From assembly GCF_031458255.1 (NCBI RefSeq), contig NZ_JAVDYC010000001.1:3729001-3793000 (forward strand): 64,000 bases of DNA, in the 5' to 3' direction. Positions 2,535 through 10,401 of the stretch are shown here, one piece after another. This stretch comes from Catenuloplanes niger. GTDB lineage: Bacteria > Actinomycetota > Actinomycetes > Mycobacteriales > Micromonosporaceae. The position numbers and the translations under genes are program-made. The notes under the pieces were generated by a model. It saw nothing but the letters and a program-made list of their open reading frames with translations. It made no database searches and was not told the DNA's origin. Each line of letters opens with the position of its first letter. The stretch's first letter is position 1.

Positions 2535-4706
2535 TCAGAGCACCACCTCGGGTTTGATCCGGGTGACCGTCCAGACCCGGTGCCGCCGCGCGCCGAGCGC
2601 CGTGAGCAGCAGCGCGACCAGCAGGTAGGCCACCAGGATGGAGACCGCGCGGCCGACCGCCATCAGGTCGCCGCCGTACATCAGGTGGCGCAGGCCCTCG
2701 ACCGAGTAACTCATCGGCAGCACGTGGTGCAGGCCGTGCAACGGTGCCGGGATGGTCTGCCACGGGAACGTGCCGCCCGCGCTGACCAGTTGCAGGACCA
2801 TCAGCACCAGCCCGAGGAACTGGCCGACCGCGCCGAGCCAGGCGTTGAGCATGTGGATGATCGCGATGAACGTGGCGGACGCCAGCATCATGAACGCGGC
2901 CATGCCCGCCGGGTGCACCGGGTGGAACCGCAGCGCGAACAGCACGACCGCGAAGAGCAGGCCCATCTGCGCGGCGCCGAGCAGCGCGGGCGCGAGCCAG
3001 CCGCCGAGCGCGACGCGCAGGCCGGACTGGTTGGCCGCCATCGCCCGGGTGGAGAGCGGGCGGACCAGCAGGAACAGCACGTACCCGCCGATCCAGGCGG
3101 CCAGCGAGAGGAAGAACGGGGCGAGGCCGGCGCCGTAGTTCGCCGCCTCGTTCTGGCGCACCGTCTGCACGTCGACCGGGTCGGCGATCGTGCCGGCCGT
3201 GGCGGCGCGCGTGTTGTCGTCCAGCTTCGGGATCTCGGCCAGGCCGCCACGCAGGCCGGCGGCGAGGTCCCGGGCGTTCCCGGCGAGCGTGCCGAGGCCC
3301 TGCTCCAGATCGGCCGAGCCGTCCGCGAGCTTCGCGGCACCGCTGGCGGACGCGGCCAGGCCGTCCCGGAGCGCGATCGCACCCTCGCTGATCGTGTCGC
3401 TGCCGCCCGCGAGCCGGGTCGCGCCGGTGTGCAGCGCGGCCGCGCCGAGCGCCGCGTCGTTGATCCCGGCGGTGAACCCGGGCACGGCGGCGGCCAGCTC
3501 GGTCACGCCCGCGTCGACCTGCTCCGCGCCGAGCGCGAGCGAGTCGAGCCGGGTGGCGAGCGCGGCCATGTTCGCCCGCGAGGTGGCCAGCGCGGCACGG
3601 GTCTCGCCGAGCCGGGCGCCGACCGCGGCGACGTCGGCCTCGGGCACGCCGAGCGCGGCCAGCCGGCCGGTCAGCGCGGCGTCCGCGCCGGCCACGGCCG
3701 CGCCGGAGCCGGTGGACGCGCCAGACCCGCCAGTCGTGGTGGACCCCGCGGTCGTGGTGGACCCGGCGGTCGTGGTGGACCCGCCGGTCGTAGTAAAACC
3801 GTCGGTCGTGGTGGCGGCGAACCCACCGGCCGCCGCGGCGGCCTCGCGCGCGCCGGCCGCGACCGACGCGGCGCCGTCCGCGAGCGTCCGTGCCGATCCG
3901 GGCAGCGCGGCCGACGACGTGCGCAGCGTGCTCAGCCCGCCGGCGAGATCGTCCGCGCCGGTGGCGAGCGTGCGCGCGCCGGCGCCACCGGCCTGGGCCG
4001 CCGCGGCCAGGTCACGTGCGCTGCTGAGCAGGTCGTGGTCGCCGCCGGCCAGCTTGGCGCTGCTGTCCGCGAGCTTCTCCGCGCCGTCGTGTGCCGTGCC
4101 GGCGCCCGCGGCGAGCTTGTCCGCACCGGCCGCGGCCTCGGACGTCCGTTCGTAGATGTGCTGGAAGCCGAGCAGGAACCGCTCGGCCGCGCGCGTGCCG
4201 ACCTCGCGGGACAGCGAGTCCTGGATCTCCGTGGCGACCTGTGCCGCGATCGTGTGCACCACGTAGTTGTTGGCGTCGTTGGTGGTCAGCACGATCGTGC
4301 CGGCGCGTGGCGTACCACCGCCCTCGACCGCCTCGGTGGTGGAGATCAGCGCGGCCGAGAAGTCGGCCGGGATGCGCAGCGCGAAGTCGAACTCGCCGTC
4401 CCGGACGCCGGCCTCCGCGGCCTCCGCGGTGGTGCGCCGCCAGTCGAACGCGCCGTCCTCGACGAGTTCCGCGCCGACCCGCGCACCGGCCTGCATCAGC
4501 GAGCCGTCCCGCTGGGTGGCGCCGACGTCGTCGATGACCAGCGCGGCCGGCACCCGGTCGAGCCGCGCGTACGGGTCGGAGTTCGCGTAGAGATACAGCC
4601 CGCCGTAGAGCAGCGGGACCGCGGCCAGCGCCAGCACCACGAGCTTCGGGGTACGGCCCGCGGTGAGCCTGCGCAGCTCCGAGACGGCCAACCGGACAGC
4701 ACTCAC
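2535..4706 (-). CDS. YhgE/Pip-family membrane protein (ABC-2-like transporter)
   Basis: A 723-residue membrane protein. After about 15 residues there is one TM helix (PKLVVLALAAVPLLYGGLYLY). A large external region follows, made of repeated heptad-like units with the pattern GA..LA.GA..L, such as AGADKLAAGAGTAHDG. Near residue 310 sits a Thr-Ser-Gly repeat (GGSTTTAGSTTTAGS, a tandem repeat in the DNA at about 3720-3800). The last 200 residues hold five TM helices, as in the ABC-2 membrane fold. This matches YhgE/Pip proteins, whose substrates are mostly unknown but are thought to be envelope lipids or proteins. The start is GTG at 4706: GAGGAG lies six bases upstream and the codon overlaps the stop of the upstream gene (GTGA). 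That coupling suggests the two products act together. Confidence 0.88.
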   Translation of the reverse strand: MSAVRLAVSELRRLTAGRTPKLVVLALAAVPLLYGGLYLYANSDPYARLDRVPAALVIDDVGATQRDGSLMQAGARVGAELVEDGAFDWRRTTAEAAEAGVRDGEFDFALRIPADFSAALISTTEAVEGGGTPRAGTIVLTTNDANNYVVHTIAAQVATEIQDSLSREVGTRAAERFLLGFQHIYERTSEAAAGADKLAAGAGTAHDGAEKLADSSAKLAGGDHDLLSSARDLAAAAQAGGAGARTLATGADDLAGGLSTLRTSSAALPGSARTLADGAASVAAGAREAAAAAGGFAATTTDGFTTTGGSTTTAGSTTTAGSTTTGGSGASTGSGAAVAGADAALTGRLAALGVPEADVAAVGARLGETRAALATSRANMAALATRLDSLALGAEQVDAGVTELAAAVPGFTAGINDAALGAAALHTGATRLAGGSDTISEGAIALRDGLAASASGAAKLADGSADLEQGLGTLAGNARDLAAGLRGGLAEIPKLDDNTRAATAGTIADPVDVQTVRQNEAANYGAGLAPFFLSLAAWIGGYVLFLLVRPLSTRAMAANQSGLRVALGGWLAPALLGAAQMGLLFAVVLFALRFHPVHPAGMAAFMMLASATFIAIIHMLNAWLGAVGQFLGLVLMVLQLVSAGGTFPWQTIPAPLHGLHHVLPMSYSVEGLRHLMYGGDLMAVGRAVSILVAYLLVALLLTALGARRHRVWTVTRIKPEVVL
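3715..3805 (-). repeat. In-frame tandem repeat coding for Gly-Ser-Thr-Thr-Thr units
   Basis: Within the YhgE-like gene, a 15-bp unit (GTCGTGGTGGACCC on the + strand) recurs about four times. It codes for TTTAGS/TTTGGS in the extracytoplasmic region. Such Thr/Ser/Gly runs are typical flexible linkers and their copy number can vary between strains. Confidence 0.75.
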
Positions 4707-7135
4707 GAAATCTCCTCGGTGTGTCGGCCTGTCGCTTCGGTGTTCCGGGTGATCGCTTCCGTCGTCGCGGACGCGCCCAGCTGCCGGCGGCGGACCGTGG
4801 CGATGGTGAACCCGGCCGCGGCCGGCGCGTCCGGATCGGCGTTGCCCAGCCGGACCGCGCGCAGCCCGAGCAGTTCCGCCGACGTGTCCGTGCACTGGAC
4901 GATCACGCCGTAGCCGCGTGCCGCGAGCACGCCGGCCAGGTCCCACCAGGCGCCGGGTCCGCCGCCGTGCCGGTCCGGCAGGGTCAGCACGAGCACGCTG
5001 ACGCCGGGCCGGAGCGCGGCCAGCTCGGCGAGCACGCGCGTGCGTACCGGGCCGGGCACGTGCTCGGTGCGGGTCTCCGCGTAGACGAGCGCGCCGTGCC
5101 GGTCGAGCCACTCCCGGACCGCCCGCCGCCCGGCCCTCGCGCGCGCCATCGACAGTTCCTCGCCGACCACGGCCGCGAGCGGTAGCATCTCGTCGGGTTC
5201 GCTGATGCCGGGCACGTCGACCAGCGCGACCGCCTCGCGCAGCCGCTTCCCGGAGTGCTCGCCGTCCAGCGTGACGTCGCCGCCGTCCGGTTCCAGCCGG
5301 CCGCCGAGCGCGAGCGCGAGCGCGGTGTGACCGTGACCGGGCGGCCCCGCGACCGCGACCCGGCGGCCCGCGACCACGCCGACGCTGGTCGGCCGCAGCA
5401 GCAGCCCGTGCGGCCCCCGGGCGGTGACCGCGCGCGCCTCGATCGCCACCGCCTCGACCGGCTCCTCCAGCAGCACCTGCGGCTCGGTCTCGACCGCGTA
5501 GAGGCGCTCGATCTCCGTGGCGAACAGCGCGGTGAGCAGCCGGCGGCGTGGCCGGAGCGTGGGCGTGAGGTGTCCGGCCCGCCGGGACAGGCCGCCGGGG
5601 AGGATCTCGAACCGGCGGATCTGTTCGGCCGCGGACGTCCGTGCGTTGGCCGCGTCGATCGCCACCCGGATCGCCTCGATCACCCGCGGGTCGGTGGCGG
5701 CCGGGGTCGCCGCGTCCGGGAAGGCGCGCTGGACCGCGCTCTCCTCCAGCGCGATCAGCGCCGCGACGTACGGCCGCCGCTCGCCGACCGCCAGGCAGTG
5801 CGCGACGAGCGGGTGCGCGCGGACCACCTCCTCCAGTGCGACGGCCGCGACCCGCCGCCCGGACTGCAGCGTGAGCATGTCCTCGACGTTGCCGGCGATC
5901 CGCAGGTAGCCGTCGTCGTCCAGCGCGCCGAGGTCGCCGGTGTGCAGCCAGCCGGACGCGTCCACCACCGGGTCCCGGTCGATCTCGGACGGGCCGTCGT
6001 AGCCGGGGAAGATGCCCGGGCCGCGCACGAAGACCTCGCCGTCCGGGCTGACCCGCACCTCGACGCCGGGCAGCGGCGTGCCGACCGTGCCGGGCCGGTG
6101 CAGCGCCGGCGTGTTCAGCGTGACCGCGGCGGTGGCCTCGGTCAGCCCGTACCCGGTGAGCAGCGGCACGCCCGCGCCGCGGTAGAGCCGGGCGAGCCGG
6201 TCGCTGACCGGCGCGCCACCGGTGATCAGGTATTCGGCCCGGCCGCCGAGCGCGTCCCGCAGCGCCGCGAACGCGCGTTCGTGCCGGGACCGCCGCAGCC
6301 GGCCGCGCAGCCCGCCCGGACCGGCCAGCGCGGCCCGCTCCGCCGCGTCGTCGCCGCCGAGGTGGCGGCCCCAGAGATGCTCGAAGAAGCGCGGCGGTGC
6401 CGCGAGCACCGACGGCCGCAGGTCCGCGAGGTCGGCCAGGATCCGCTCCGGGCCGGTGTGCGCGATCCGGGCCCCGCCGATCAGGGCCGCGAGGTGCACG
6501 ATCCGGCCGAAGACGTGCGACAGCGGCAGCGCGGACAGCACGGTGCGCGGCTCGCCGCCGAACAGCTGCGGCAGCGCCTCCCGGATCGCGCGCGCGGCCG
6601 CGTCCAGGTTCGCGTGGGTGAGCCGGCAGGCCGCGGGCCGGCCGCCGACCCCGGACGTGTAGACGATGGTGGCGACCGCGCCGGACGGCATGGCGGCCGG
6701 TGGGATCGCGCCGAGCGTCGGCACCTCCAGCGCGGACATCGGCGTCAGCGGCCCGCCCGCACCGGTCTGCCAGGCGTGCGGGAGACCGGCCGCGGCGACC
6801 CGCGCGGTGAGTGCCGGGTCGTCGCCGGTGACCACGCAGGCCGCGGCGCCGCAGCAGCGCAGCATCCAGTCGAGCTGCTCGCCGGGGACCTCCTCCTGCA
6901 GGGCGACCGGGATCGCGCCGATCCACCAGGCCGCCAGGTCCGTGATCGCCCACTCGTACCCGGGTGCGCCCAGGATCGCGATCCGGTCCCCCGCACCGAG
7001 TCCGGCCGCGAGCAACCCGCCCGCCCGCTTGCTGATCCGGGTCTGCAGCTCGGCGGGGGCGAGTTCGTGCCAGCCGGCGGCGGTCCGTTCGCAGAGGAGG
7101 GCGCGCTCCGGCCACCGTTGCGCCGACACCGCCAC
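4703..7135 (-). CDS. Degenerate acyl-CoA synthetase fused to a degenerate ABC ATPase
   Basis: An 810-residue protein in two parts. Residues 1 to about 540 follow the AMP-binding (ANL) fold of long-chain acyl-CoA synthetases: GDRIAILGAPGYEWAI, YGLTEA and GWLHTGDLG are all visible. The key loop, normally YTSGTTGxPKG, reads IVYTSGVGGRPAACRLTH, and the later GRKK/GKN region reads IAGNVEDMLTLQSGRR. The usual catalytic lysine is therefore not seen. Residues of about 560-790 resemble an ABC ATPase, with GPPGHGHTALALA where Walker A should be (Lys replaced by His) and VLVLTLPDRHGG where Walker B should be; no LSGGQ is seen. Both parts therefore look weak or inactive as enzymes. The start is GTG at 7135. 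The stop overlaps the YhgE-like start, which suggests a partner subunit role. Identity of the fold is clear; function is unknown. Confidence 0.8.
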   Translation of the reverse strand: MAVSAQRWPERALLCERTAAGWHELAPAELQTRISKRAGGLLAAGLGAGDRIAILGAPGYEWAITDLAAWWIGAIPVALQEEVPGEQLDWMLRCCGAAACVVTGDDPALTARVAAAGLPHAWQTGAGGPLTPMSALEVPTLGAIPPAAMPSGAVATIVYTSGVGGRPAACRLTHANLDAAARAIREALPQLFGGEPRTVLSALPLSHVFGRIVHLAALIGGARIAHTGPERILADLADLRPSVLAAPPRFFEHLWGRHLGGDDAAERAALAGPGGLRGRLRRSRHERAFAALRDALGGRAEYLITGGAPVSDRLARLYRGAGVPLLTGYGLTEATAAVTLNTPALHRPGTVGTPLPGVEVRVSPDGEVFVRGPGIFPGYDGPSEIDRDPVVDASGWLHTGDLGALDDDGYLRIAGNVEDMLTLQSGRRVAAVALEEVVRAHPLVAHCLAVGERRPYVAALIALEESAVQRAFPDAATPAATDPRVIEAIRVAIDAANARTSAAEQIRRFEILPGGLSRRAGHLTPTLRPRRRLLTALFATEIERLYAVETEPQVLLEEPVEAVAIEARAVTARGPHGLLLRPTSVGVVAGRRVAVAGPPGHGHTALALALGGRLEPDGGDVTLDGEHSGKRLREAVALVDVPGISEPDEMLPLAAVVGEELSMARARAGRRAVREWLDRHGALVYAETRTEHVPGPVRTRVLAELAALRPGVSVLVLTLPDRHGGGPGAWWDLAGVLAARGYGVIVQCTDTSAELLGLRAVRLGNADPDAPAAAGFTIATVRRRQLGASATTEAITRNTEATGRHTEEIS

Positions 7136-7224
7136 ACCGGCAGCGTAAGTCGGAGGTAAGCCTTATATCGCGTGAATCGGTCTTACCGGCCACGGACCGG
7201 CACGCTGTGCTAGGACCGCGCGGG

Positions 7225-10200
7225 TCAGGCCGCGATCTGCTGGCGGATTCCGGTGTTGAGCCAGGCGACCACCGCGTCCGGCCAGGCCGGGGGCGAGAAC
7301 AGGTAGCCCTGGCCGAAGGGGCAGCCCATGTCCAGCAGCATCTGTTTGTGGGCCGGGTCCTCGACGCCCTCCGCGACCACGCCGAGGTTGAGATTGTCGG
7401 CGATGCTGACGATCGCGGCGACCAGCGCGCGCTGCTGCCTGCTGCTGGAGATGTCGTCGATGAACGACTTGTCGATCTTGAGGATGTCGACCGGCATCTG
7501 GCGGAGGTAGCTGAGCGAGGAGTAGCCGGTGCCGAAGTCGTCGATCGCGATCCGCACGCCCATCTCGCGGAGCCGGGCCAGGTCCTGCCACACCGACTCG
7601 TCGTCGCGCAGCAGCAGGCTCTCGGTGATCTCCAGCAGCAGGCGCCACGGTGCCACGCCGCTCTCCGTGATCACCTTGGCGACCTCGTCGACGAACCCGG
7701 GGCTGCGGAACTGCCGCGCGGAGACGTTCACCGAGACATACCGCAGCGGCGCGGCCGGGACGAGTTGCCGCCAGCCCGCGATGGCCAGCAGCGCCTCGCG
7801 CAGCACCCAGGCGCCGATCGGCACGATCGCGCCGTTCTCCTCCGCGACCTCGATGAACTCGCCCGGCCCGATCAGGCCGCGGGTCGGGTGCTGCCAGCGG
7901 ACCAGCGCCTCCAGCCCGACGATGTCCTCGGTGGCCAGGTCCACGATCGGCTGGTACTGCAGCACCAGCTGCTGGTCCTCGACCGCGGTGCTGAGCGCGG
8001 CGCGCATCTCCAGTCGCTCCACCATCGCGGTGTGCAGGTCCGTCCGGTAGCGCTGGAAGCGGCCCTTCCCGTCGCCCTTGGAGACGTAGAGCGCGAGGTC
8101 GGCCTGGCGCTGCATCTCGGCCGCGTCGTGCGCCTCCACGCTGGTGGTGACGCCGATGCTGACCGCGCCGCTGACCATCGCGGAACCGCCGCCGTCGTAG
8201 CGCAGCTCGAACGGTTCGGTGCACGCCTCGACGATCCGGGCGGCCACGTCGTCCGCCTCGGCCGGGGTGTGCAACTGCTCGATCAGCACCGCGAACTCGT
8301 CACCGCCGATCCGGGCCACGGTCTCCTGCGGGCCGACCACGCCGGCGATCCGCACGCCGGCCGCGGCCAGCAGCCGGTCGCCGACGATCAGGCCGAGCGT
8401 GTCGTTGACCACCTTGAAGTCGTCGAGGTCGATGAAGAGCAGACCGACCACGGACCGGTCGCGCCGGGCCAGCGTGAGCGCGTGCTCCAGCCGGTTCTGC
8501 AACAGCAACCGGTTCGCCAGGCCGGTCAGCGTGTCGTGGAAGGCCTGGTGGGCGAGGTCGCTCTCCAGCCGGCGGCGTTCGGTGACGTCGCGCATGGTCA
8601 GCACGGCGCCGCGCACGGTCGGCTCGTCGCGCATGTCCTGGATCGTGCACTCGACCTGCACGGTGCGACCGTCGGCACCCAGCCCGACCAGGTCGAACGC
8701 GGCCGACTGGCCGCGGCCGGCGCGCAGCCGCTGGAGCGCCTCGCGGAGGCGTTCGTGCTGCTCACCCACGATCAGGTCGGTGACCGGCGTGCCGGCCAGG
8801 GTGGGCGCGGGCGTGCCGAAGACGTCGGCGGCGGACGGGCTGGCGTACCCGATCCGGTCGTCGTCGCCGACGATCAGGATCACGTCGGACGTGTTCTGGA
8901 TCAGCGTCCGGAAGTAGGACTCGTGCTTGCGCCGGTTGATCTCCGCGCCCAGCGCGATCCGGTCGATCGCCATCGTGCCCTGCGACACCAGCGCCTCGAA
9001 CACCGGTCGCAGCCGCCACAGCACCGGCTCGCGCGCGGCCAGGCAGATCCAGGTGAAGCGCACCGCGGACGAGCCCTCGTCGGGCAGCAGCGGCCCGGGT
9101 GCGCGCAACGCGACCGTGAAGCCGTCCAGCGGTTCACCGTGCGTCGGCGGCAGTGCCTCGACCGGTTGCAGCGTGACGCCGTCCGCGAAGAACTCCTCCC
9201 GGGTCATGCCGTCGAAGATGCCGGCGCTCTCCAGCACGTACGGCTCGCCCGGCGGCATCAGCTGGGCCACCGCGCCCCGGACCGCGGCCGCGACCTCGGC
9301 CGGCGTGGCCGCGGAGACCAGCCGCGCACCGGCCTCGCGCAGCACCCGCTCGCGGTGACTGATCTGCCGGTGGTCCGCGAGCAGTCCGGCGAGCCGGCCG
9401 ATGACCAGCAGGAACATCAGCGCGGAGAACGCCGCGATGACCGGCGCGTCGGAGACCGTGCCGTCCAGGTTCTCGTAGACCAGCACGGCCGGCGCGACCA
9501 GCGCGGCCGTGACCAGCGTGGCGAGCCGGCGCCACCCGGCCACCCGCGGCAGGAACCCGGCCTGCGTGTGTTCGGTGAGCCGGGTCATCGACGGGTCCAG
9601 CGCCGCGTACCCGATCAGCGCGTAGAAGGCGACCCAGCCCAGGTCGACCGGGCTGCCGGCGCGCCAGTCCTGGCTGAGCCGGTGCAGCCCGTAGATCAGG
9701 TCGGTGCCGAGCAGCGCGGTGACGCCGACCGTGAGCGCGGTGATCGACAGGTGCCGGGTGCCGGGCGCGCCGAGCAGCCGCACCAGCATGGCGAGCGCGA
9801 GCACGTCGCCGACCGGGTAGCCGATCGAGGTGAGCTTCTCGGCCGTGCTCAGGTCCGTGTCGCGCACGAACGGGCCGATCCAGAACACCCACACCAGCAG
9901 CCCGATCGCGGCCGTCGGGACCAGCGCGTCGAGCAGCGCGGCCCGGTCCTCCGCGCCGGACCGGTACCGGATGAAGATCAGCAGCGCACCGGCCAGCAGC
10001 GGGTACGACAGCAGGTAGAACCCGTCCGCGGCGGACGGGAACGGGTCGGCCGCGAGCAGGTTGTAGACCGCGTCGCCGAGCGTGAACGTGACCAGCACGC
10101 CGCACAGCAGGAACCACGGCAGTGCGCGGCCGGGCCGGTTGAGGAGCACCCCGGCCAGCACCGCGATCGAGGCGGAGAAGCCGAGCGCGGCCCACACCGC

Positions 10201-10287
10201 GGTGCCGTACGCCGGGATCGCGTAGTAGGCGCCGGTCAGCGCGACCATCCACACGCCGAAACAGGCCCGCGCGACTCGGGTGGACAT
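7225..10287 (-). CDS. Membrane GGDEF-EAL protein (cyclic-di-GMP turnover) with PAS domain
   Basis: A 1020-residue protein. The first 310 residues hold about ten hydrophobic helices. Next comes a GAF-like segment, a PAS domain of about 120 residues (SYFRTLIQNTSDVILIVGDD ... TMRDVTERRRLESD), a GGDEF domain (HDTLTGLANR; RIGGDEFAVL) and an EAL domain (GLEALVRWQHP; VNVSARQF; LEITES; IDDFGTGYSSL; LKIDKSF; VVAEGVE). The GGDEF motif and the EAL metal- and substrate-binding residues are all intact, so it may both make and break c-di-GMP. The product-inhibition site (RxxD five residues before GGDEF) reads GPQE, so feedback control through the I-site looks absent. The ATG at 10287 has GGAGGG just upstream; the open frame extends 24 codons further without support. 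It is transcribed alone. Confidence 0.93.
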   Translation of the reverse strand: MSTRVARACFGVWMVALTGAYYAIPAYGTAVWAALGFSASIAVLAGVLLNRPGRALPWFLLCGVLVTFTLGDAVYNLLAADPFPSAADGFYLLSYPLLAGALLIFIRYRSGAEDRAALLDALVPTAAIGLLVWVFWIGPFVRDTDLSTAEKLTSIGYPVGDVLALAMLVRLLGAPGTRHLSITALTVGVTALLGTDLIYGLHRLSQDWRAGSPVDLGWVAFYALIGYAALDPSMTRLTEHTQAGFLPRVAGWRRLATLVTAALVAPAVLVYENLDGTVSDAPVIAAFSALMFLLVIGRLAGLLADHRQISHRERVLREAGARLVSAATPAEVAAAVRGAVAQLMPPGEPYVLESAGIFDGMTREEFFADGVTLQPVEALPPTHGEPLDGFTVALRAPGPLLPDEGSSAVRFTWICLAAREPVLWRLRPVFEALVSQGTMAIDRIALGAEINRRKHESYFRTLIQNTSDVILIVGDDDRIGYASPSAADVFGTPAPTLAGTPVTDLIVGEQHERLREALQRLRAGRGQSAAFDLVGLGADGRTVQVECTIQDMRDEPTVRGAVLTMRDVTERRRLESDLAHQAFHDTLTGLANRLLLQNRLEHALTLARRDRSVVGLLFIDLDDFKVVNDTLGLIVGDRLLAAAGVRIAGVVGPQETVARIGGDEFAVLIEQLHTPAEADDVAARIVEACTEPFELRYDGGGSAMVSGAVSIGVTTSVEAHDAAEMQRQADLALYVSKGDGKGRFQRYRTDLHTAMVERLEMRAALSTAVEDQQLVLQYQPIVDLATEDIVGLEALVRWQHPTRGLIGPGEFIEVAEENGAIVPIGAWVLREALLAIAGWRQLVPAAPLRYVSVNVSARQFRSPGFVDEVAKVITESGVAPWRLLLEITESLLLRDDESVWQDLARLREMGVRIAIDDFGTGYSSLSYLRQMPVDILKIDKSFIDDISSSRQQRALVAAIVSIADNLNLGVVAEGVEDPAHKQMLLDMGCPFGQGYLFSPPAWPDAVVAWLNTGIRQQIAA

Positions 10288-10401
10288 CAGCCCTCCGTTC
10301 CGGTGTTTGCTCCCGAGGTGCATTTCGGTAGCAAACCGGCGGGTCTGACTAATATCCACCCGATTGGATTCCGCCGTCCCCGGCCGGGGCGTGGCGCTAC
10401 G

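Follow-up and report, generated by a model that had tools for sequence, protein, structure and literature searches.

A YhgE-type permease of Catenuloplanes is encoded behind a fusion of two degenerate enzyme domains that may form a lipid export complex with it

YhgE/Pip membrane proteins are widespread and known as phage-infection factors; to our knowledge, no cargo is known for any of them. In the 64,000-nucleotide stretch of the Catenuloplanes niger genome analysed here (the window; all unlabelled positions refer to it), a gene of this type stands directly behind a gene that joins two apparent pseudoenzymes, a pair that an earlier note, made by reading the letters alone, had observed and that is real. 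What could such a fusion do for a YhgE protein? The membrane protein (2535-4706, minus strand, 723 aa) is a YhgE/Pip ABC-2-type permease: its N-terminal domain (4179-4682) scores 135 bits against TIGR03061 (cut-off 96), its C-terminal membrane domain (2577-3194) scores 215 bits against TIGR03062 (cut-off 102), and it matches ABC2_membrane_3 with an E value of 9.5e-19. The middle part is the fastest evolving region of the protein (dN/dS 0.3-0.7) and carries short TTT(A/G)GS repeats (about 3725-3800, minus strand). Members of the ABC-2 superfamily are found among YhgE/Pip homologues (PMC3924187).

The preceding gene (4703-7135, minus strand) has a GTG start codon and 810 codons. It encodes, in order, an AMP-binding core of the FadD11/FadD15 type (residues 4-379, positions 5999-7126; PF00501, E 8.2e-54), an AMP-binding C-terminal domain (AMP-binding_C_3, residues 419-547, positions 5495-5881; PF23562, E 2.4e-14), both above the Pfam cut-offs and together amounting to an ANL fold at profile level, and a degenerate ABC-ATPase-like domain (residues ~564-775, positions 4811-5446). 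The 810-residue fusion described by the earlier note is thus borne out by the Pfam matches and by its being in frame in all five Catenuloplanes genomes. So is the translational coupling that it had read from the overlap between the fusion stop and the YhgE start (GTGA, four nucleotides, 4703-4706, minus strand, with GAGGAG upstream), which is present in the five genomes alike. At the other end of the gene, a -10-like hexamer, TACGCT (7142-7147, minus strand), lies 6 nt before the GTG; it is identical in the five genomes, at six or seven bases from the start codon, and none of the five starts has a Shine-Dalgarno sequence. Since the hexamer sits just before the start codon and the Shine-Dalgarno is absent, the mRNA is possibly leaderless and made from a promoter of its own, to which TACGCT would belong. 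An internal start yielding a separate ABC protein was considered, as a GTG occurs where the stand-alone homologues begin; it was rejected because two of the five genomes have GTC or CTC there instead. A PAS-GGDEF-EAL gene (7225-10359, minus strand) lies upstream of the fusion on the same strand and in the same place in all five Catenuloplanes; an operon of the two is unlikely because the gap varies from 55 to about 1900 nt and holds a transposase-like ORF in one genome.

The C-terminal part of the fusion was only narrowly missed by the Pfam ABC_tran model (residues 581-630, 21.6 bits, just under the 25-bit cut-off). A profile of homologues devoid of the Walker A lysine matched EcfA1 (4hlu) over the full length (E 1.6e-8, residues 7-191 of 201), which provides the homology expected of an ABC nucleotide-binding domain, and a broader profile had ABCG1 as its best PDB match (E 3e-11). 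At profile level, residues ~560-790, where an ABC-like fold had been proposed, are a relative of the ABC ATPases. AlphaFold models of the fusion and of its ABC-like part, built on a shallow alignment with one homologue (L031), reached pLDDT values of 31 and 36 and were left out of any fold search. The catalytic motifs are gone, as the earlier note had stated for Walker A, LSGGQ and Walker B. In place of GxxGxGK(S/T) the window has GPPGHGHT (within GPPGHGHTA, 5321-5347, minus strand), with His for Lys, as in all five fusions and several stand-alone homologues. The Walker B position aligns with LVLTLPDRHGG (4961-4993, minus strand), which has no Asp-Glu and contains a motif of this clade, PDRHGG. 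The switch histidine is also missing (VQCTDT).

A search of 296 phylum genomes with the ABC-like part alone returned stand-alone homologues of about 220 aa, each of which, where read, directly precedes a YhgE gene. Because a search seeded from the ABC-like domain selects for such pairing, we ran an unbiased survey from the other side, with TIGR03061 over the 296 phylum genomes. At every one of the 23 above-cut-off YhgE loci of the class Actinomycetes, found by YhgE alone, the gene is directly preceded by an ABC-like domain whose end lies no more than about 40 nt from the YhgE domain; most of these partners are stand-alone proteins of about 220 aa. Outside the class, a partner with GKT was present at two loci and none at 11 sampled loci. 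Stand-alone proteins with an intact GRNGSGKT precede YhgE at L116 and L122, both outside the class; no ABC-like neighbour accompanies the remaining YhgE loci sampled in that part of the phylum. The premise that YhgE normally goes without an ATPase-like partner is therefore wrong for Actinomycetes, and the view of the fusion as an unexpected partner survives for the FadD-like part only: since all 23 loci have an ABC-like domain, that part is the expected one. A search of a collection of open-access papers found none describing the ABC-like partner or its fusions, and a plasmid search with a stand-alone homologue gave no match. Within Micromonosporaceae, the pooled profile (A1) also matched ordinary ABC ATPases; genome counts were therefore not used, and loci were counted only where YhgE adjoins.

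The two partners also co-evolve. Distances between ABC-like domains and between YhgE proteins correlate over 76 loci with a Mantel r of 0.89, part of which is shared species history, and none of 2000 permutations reached this value. YhgE occurs at three places in the source genome: the locus in the window, L134 with a stand-alone ABC-like protein, and L140 with an MMPL fusion. Compared with pairs from other families, the window pair reaches up to 58% for YhgE and up to 50% for the ABC-like part; against L134, from its own genome, the values are 42% and 29%. The window pair is thus nearer to pairs of other families than to L134, and such paralogues inside a single genome show that the two partners are inherited as a unit. 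At L140 (about 3.06 Mb), the YhgE protein scores below the model cut-off and is directly preceded by a 970-aa MMPL transporter whose C-terminal ABC-like tail is strongly degenerate. Several of the stand-alone pairs are flanked by TetR-type regulators, with a TetR_C_24-type regulator after YhgE at L134:8479-9099, L150:963-1556 and L051:5846-6619; the fused Catenuloplanes locus has none.

Could the partners nevertheless work as ATPases? Such a reading would take the ABC-like domains as enzymes in which Arg or His does the work of the P-loop Lys and Asp that of the catalytic Glu, making the fusion and YhgE an ordinary ABC-2 exporter with an added regulatory domain. The whole-length profile matches to ABC ATPases fit this, and among 82 aligned domains nine keep the Walker A lysine, in a GxxGxGKT accompanied by a VVDD-like Walker B: seven belong to MMPL fusions, and the other two are stand-alone proteins encoded outside the class. 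Many stand-alone members, moreover, retain GxxGSGRTSLLLAL and VVDD, the lysine being replaced by Arg in most stand-alone domains of Micromonosporaceae and of family f18. However, LSGGQ is absent from all 82 domains, that of the window fusion included; the window clade, which mostly has His at the lysine position, has also lost the two acidic Walker B residues and the switch histidine; and family f22 has lost the P-loop (AETEQRP) with its YhgE link unaffected. We thus consider active ATPases unlikely here. ATP binding may persist in some of these proteins, because most MMPL fusions keep the Walker A lysine and an Asp-rich Walker B, and P-loops with Arg or His may bind nucleotides weakly. For the partner in the window, which has lost residues for hydrolysis yet kept its place before YhgE and its co-evolution with it, docking or gating is the simplest reading.

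The FadD-like half is degenerate in its own way. Its best NCBIfam model is FadD11, at 230 bits, far under the 950-bit cut-off. We aligned it with 25 FadD15-like homologues from relatives and with the five Catenuloplanes fusions together. The A3 loop (6626-6661, minus strand) reads YTSGVGGRPAAC where the family has YTSGTTGRPKGC: the expected TSGTTGxPKG is TSGVGGRPAA in the window, within the YTSGVGGRPAA quoted by the earlier note, and TTGRPKG has become V(G/S)GRPAA in all five fusions. The alignment adds two further changes. The A8 region (5846-5893, minus strand) is GNVEDMLTLQSGRRVA instead of GRKKEIIVTAGGKNVA, the family's GRKKEIIVTAGGK being GNVEDMLTLQSGR in the window fusion, and the change from GRKKEIIVTAGGK to GNVEDMITLQSGR is common to the five Catenuloplanes. 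At A10 (5546-5569, minus strand), LTPTLRPR replaces LTPSLKVK, so that the adenylation lysine is Arg in each of the five. The YGLTE and TGD motifs, on the adenine and ribose sides, are retained, and purifying selection acts on the domain (see below), as might be expected if this half still catalysed some unusual reaction, perhaps as an acyl-AMP ligase whose catalytic residues have shifted, acylating a product during export. Against this stand the changes of the A3 Thr/Lys, the A8 hinge and the A10 lysine in all five fusions, when A3 and A8 are intact in the sampled FadD15 homologues and the A10 lysine is present in nearly all of them; an active enzyme is improbable, somewhat more so than an active ATPase.

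What the complex might export is suggested by the other fusions of the same module. At 11 loci, one of them in the source genome, the ABC-like domain sits at the C-terminus of an MMPL transporter encoded directly upstream of YhgE, and seven of the 11 keep the Walker A lysine; these are L131 and L187-L192, which have GxxGxGKT and VVDD and no LSGGQ. In Saccharopolyspora hirsuta, F1721_04135 (YhgE/Pip) and F1721_04140 (MMPL, which may or may not carry the ABC-like domain) are induced by cholesterol 3.8- and 3.3-fold (PMC9782250, Table 2); they are neighbouring locus tags, which the portion of that article used here does not treat as a pair. Export of mycobacterial PDIM is served by both MmpL7 and the ABC-type DrrABC (PMC11539658). 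Because this module occurs at other loci as a fusion with MMPL lipid exporters adjoining YhgE, the cargo would most likely be a lipid or an acylated metabolite, and lipid or acyl export is further favoured since both fusion partners, MMPL and FadD-type, handle lipids, and by the S. hirsuta co-induction, the MmpL7/DrrABC precedent and the TetR flanks. A different view would hold that the system signals or assembles rather than exports, with YhgE and its partner building or gating a structure at the cell surface, in the manner of EsaA in type VII secretion. The window YhgE does resemble the EsaA N-terminus weakly, and the PIP proteins of Firmicutes are phage-infection factors (PMC4999554). The T7_esaA_Nterm match, however, is only 32 bits, far under the 122-bit cut-off, and the fusions to MMPL and FadD-type proteins, like the TetR neighbours, suggest small-molecule or lipid traffic; we regard this view as more doubtful still.

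The FadD-ABC fusion itself is a feature of Catenuloplanes. It is in frame in five separately assembled genomes (nearest named genome, C. japonicus NRRL B-16061), with the GTGA overlap and the degenerate motifs kept; a whole-protein search of 40 relatives found it in no genome beyond the genus, and searches with the ABC-like part (300 family members, 296 phylum genomes and 395 class genomes) gave no further FadD fusion in the neighbourhoods that were read, those of some weak matches being left out. As to whether the two-domain fusion always adjoins YhgE, a check proposed by the earlier note, it does, though it is confined to Catenuloplanes within the sampled genomes. Pairwise dN/dS is about 0.2 in both halves (ranging over about 0.14-0.40 for the AMP part and 0.07-0.38 for the ABC-like part) and lowest in the YhgE C-terminal domain (0.08-0.22); both fusion domains are under purifying selection. 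The loss of catalytic residues from both enzymatic domains might have pointed to a fusion artefact or a decaying gene, which is refuted, and is left with hardly any probability, by the in-frame fusion in five separate assemblies, the dN/dS of about 0.2 and the conservation of the overlap and of the sequence around the start. In the tree, all FadD fusions, five in number, group as a single clade inside the degenerate stand-alone proteins (support 100/99); their closest neighbours are f21 proteins, a placement that is not firm (93/76), and the MMPL fusions lie elsewhere. As no other match in the Micromonosporaceae search scored near the window clade, Catenuloplanes likely gained the pair horizontally, followed by one fusion event.

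All together, our best reading is that YhgE has a standing ABC-derived partner, mostly non-catalytic, a module that has been joined to an MMPL pump and, in Catenuloplanes alone, to a pseudo-acyl-CoA synthetase. ABC-2 permeases work together with a nucleotide-binding protein that docks onto them from the cytosol. In Catenuloplanes, the fusion and YhgE would form a two-subunit export complex with YhgE as its ABC-2-type membrane part; the C-terminal half of the fusion, as the ABC-ATPase-derived partner of the actinomycete YhgE, would most likely be a non-hydrolysing docking or gating subunit, given its degeneracy. The N-terminal half, a FadD-type acyl-CoA synthetase fold from which adenylation residues have been lost, would most likely hold or sense an acyl chain or acyl-AMP, or recruit a cargo-making enzyme, and present the cargo to YhgE. 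This explanation, lipid cargo included, may well be right as a whole, though we stop short of calling it probable. The overall interpretation of the earlier note is partly supported, the acyl-AMP sensing and nucleotide-independent export that it suggested being possible. More tentatively, actinobacterial YhgE proteins could represent a transporter class in which a descendant of the ABC ATPases serves as a non-hydrolysing adaptor linking an ABC-2 permease to lipid-handling modules, the Catenuloplanes form being a double-pseudoenzyme, acyl-sensing lipid export complex. The conserved partner and its MMPL and FadD-type fusions provide a testable handle on YhgE, namely a lipid or acylated cargo and a motor without catalytic residues, and the locus is a new case of two unrelated enzyme folds paired as pseudoenzymes under selection.

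How does this locus compare with known systems? The membrane protein belongs with the YhgE/Pip family (TIGR03061/TIGR03062; TCDB 9.B.74, PIP), being above both curated cut-offs; no ATPase partner is described for the known PIP proteins of Firmicutes, whereas the window has a degenerate ABC-like partner gene directly upstream. Homology to the ATPases of ABCG/ABC-2 exporters spans the nucleotide-binding domain, but unlike them the window protein has no Walker A lysine, LSGGQ, Walker B or switch histidine. FadD11/FadD15 long-chain acyl-CoA synthetases share the fold, the domain order and 35-42% identity with the AMP part; the five fusions differ from them at A3, A8 and A10 and by the added C-terminal ABC-like domain. 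DrrABC and MmpL7 are similar in that ABC-type and MMPL transporters serve one lipid (PMC11539658), but there they are separate proteins with functional ABC motifs and no YhgE. In the MMPL (RND) lipid exporters with a C-terminal ABC-like domain, the same module occupies the same place before YhgE, its partner there being a membrane lipid pump and in the window a FadD domain.
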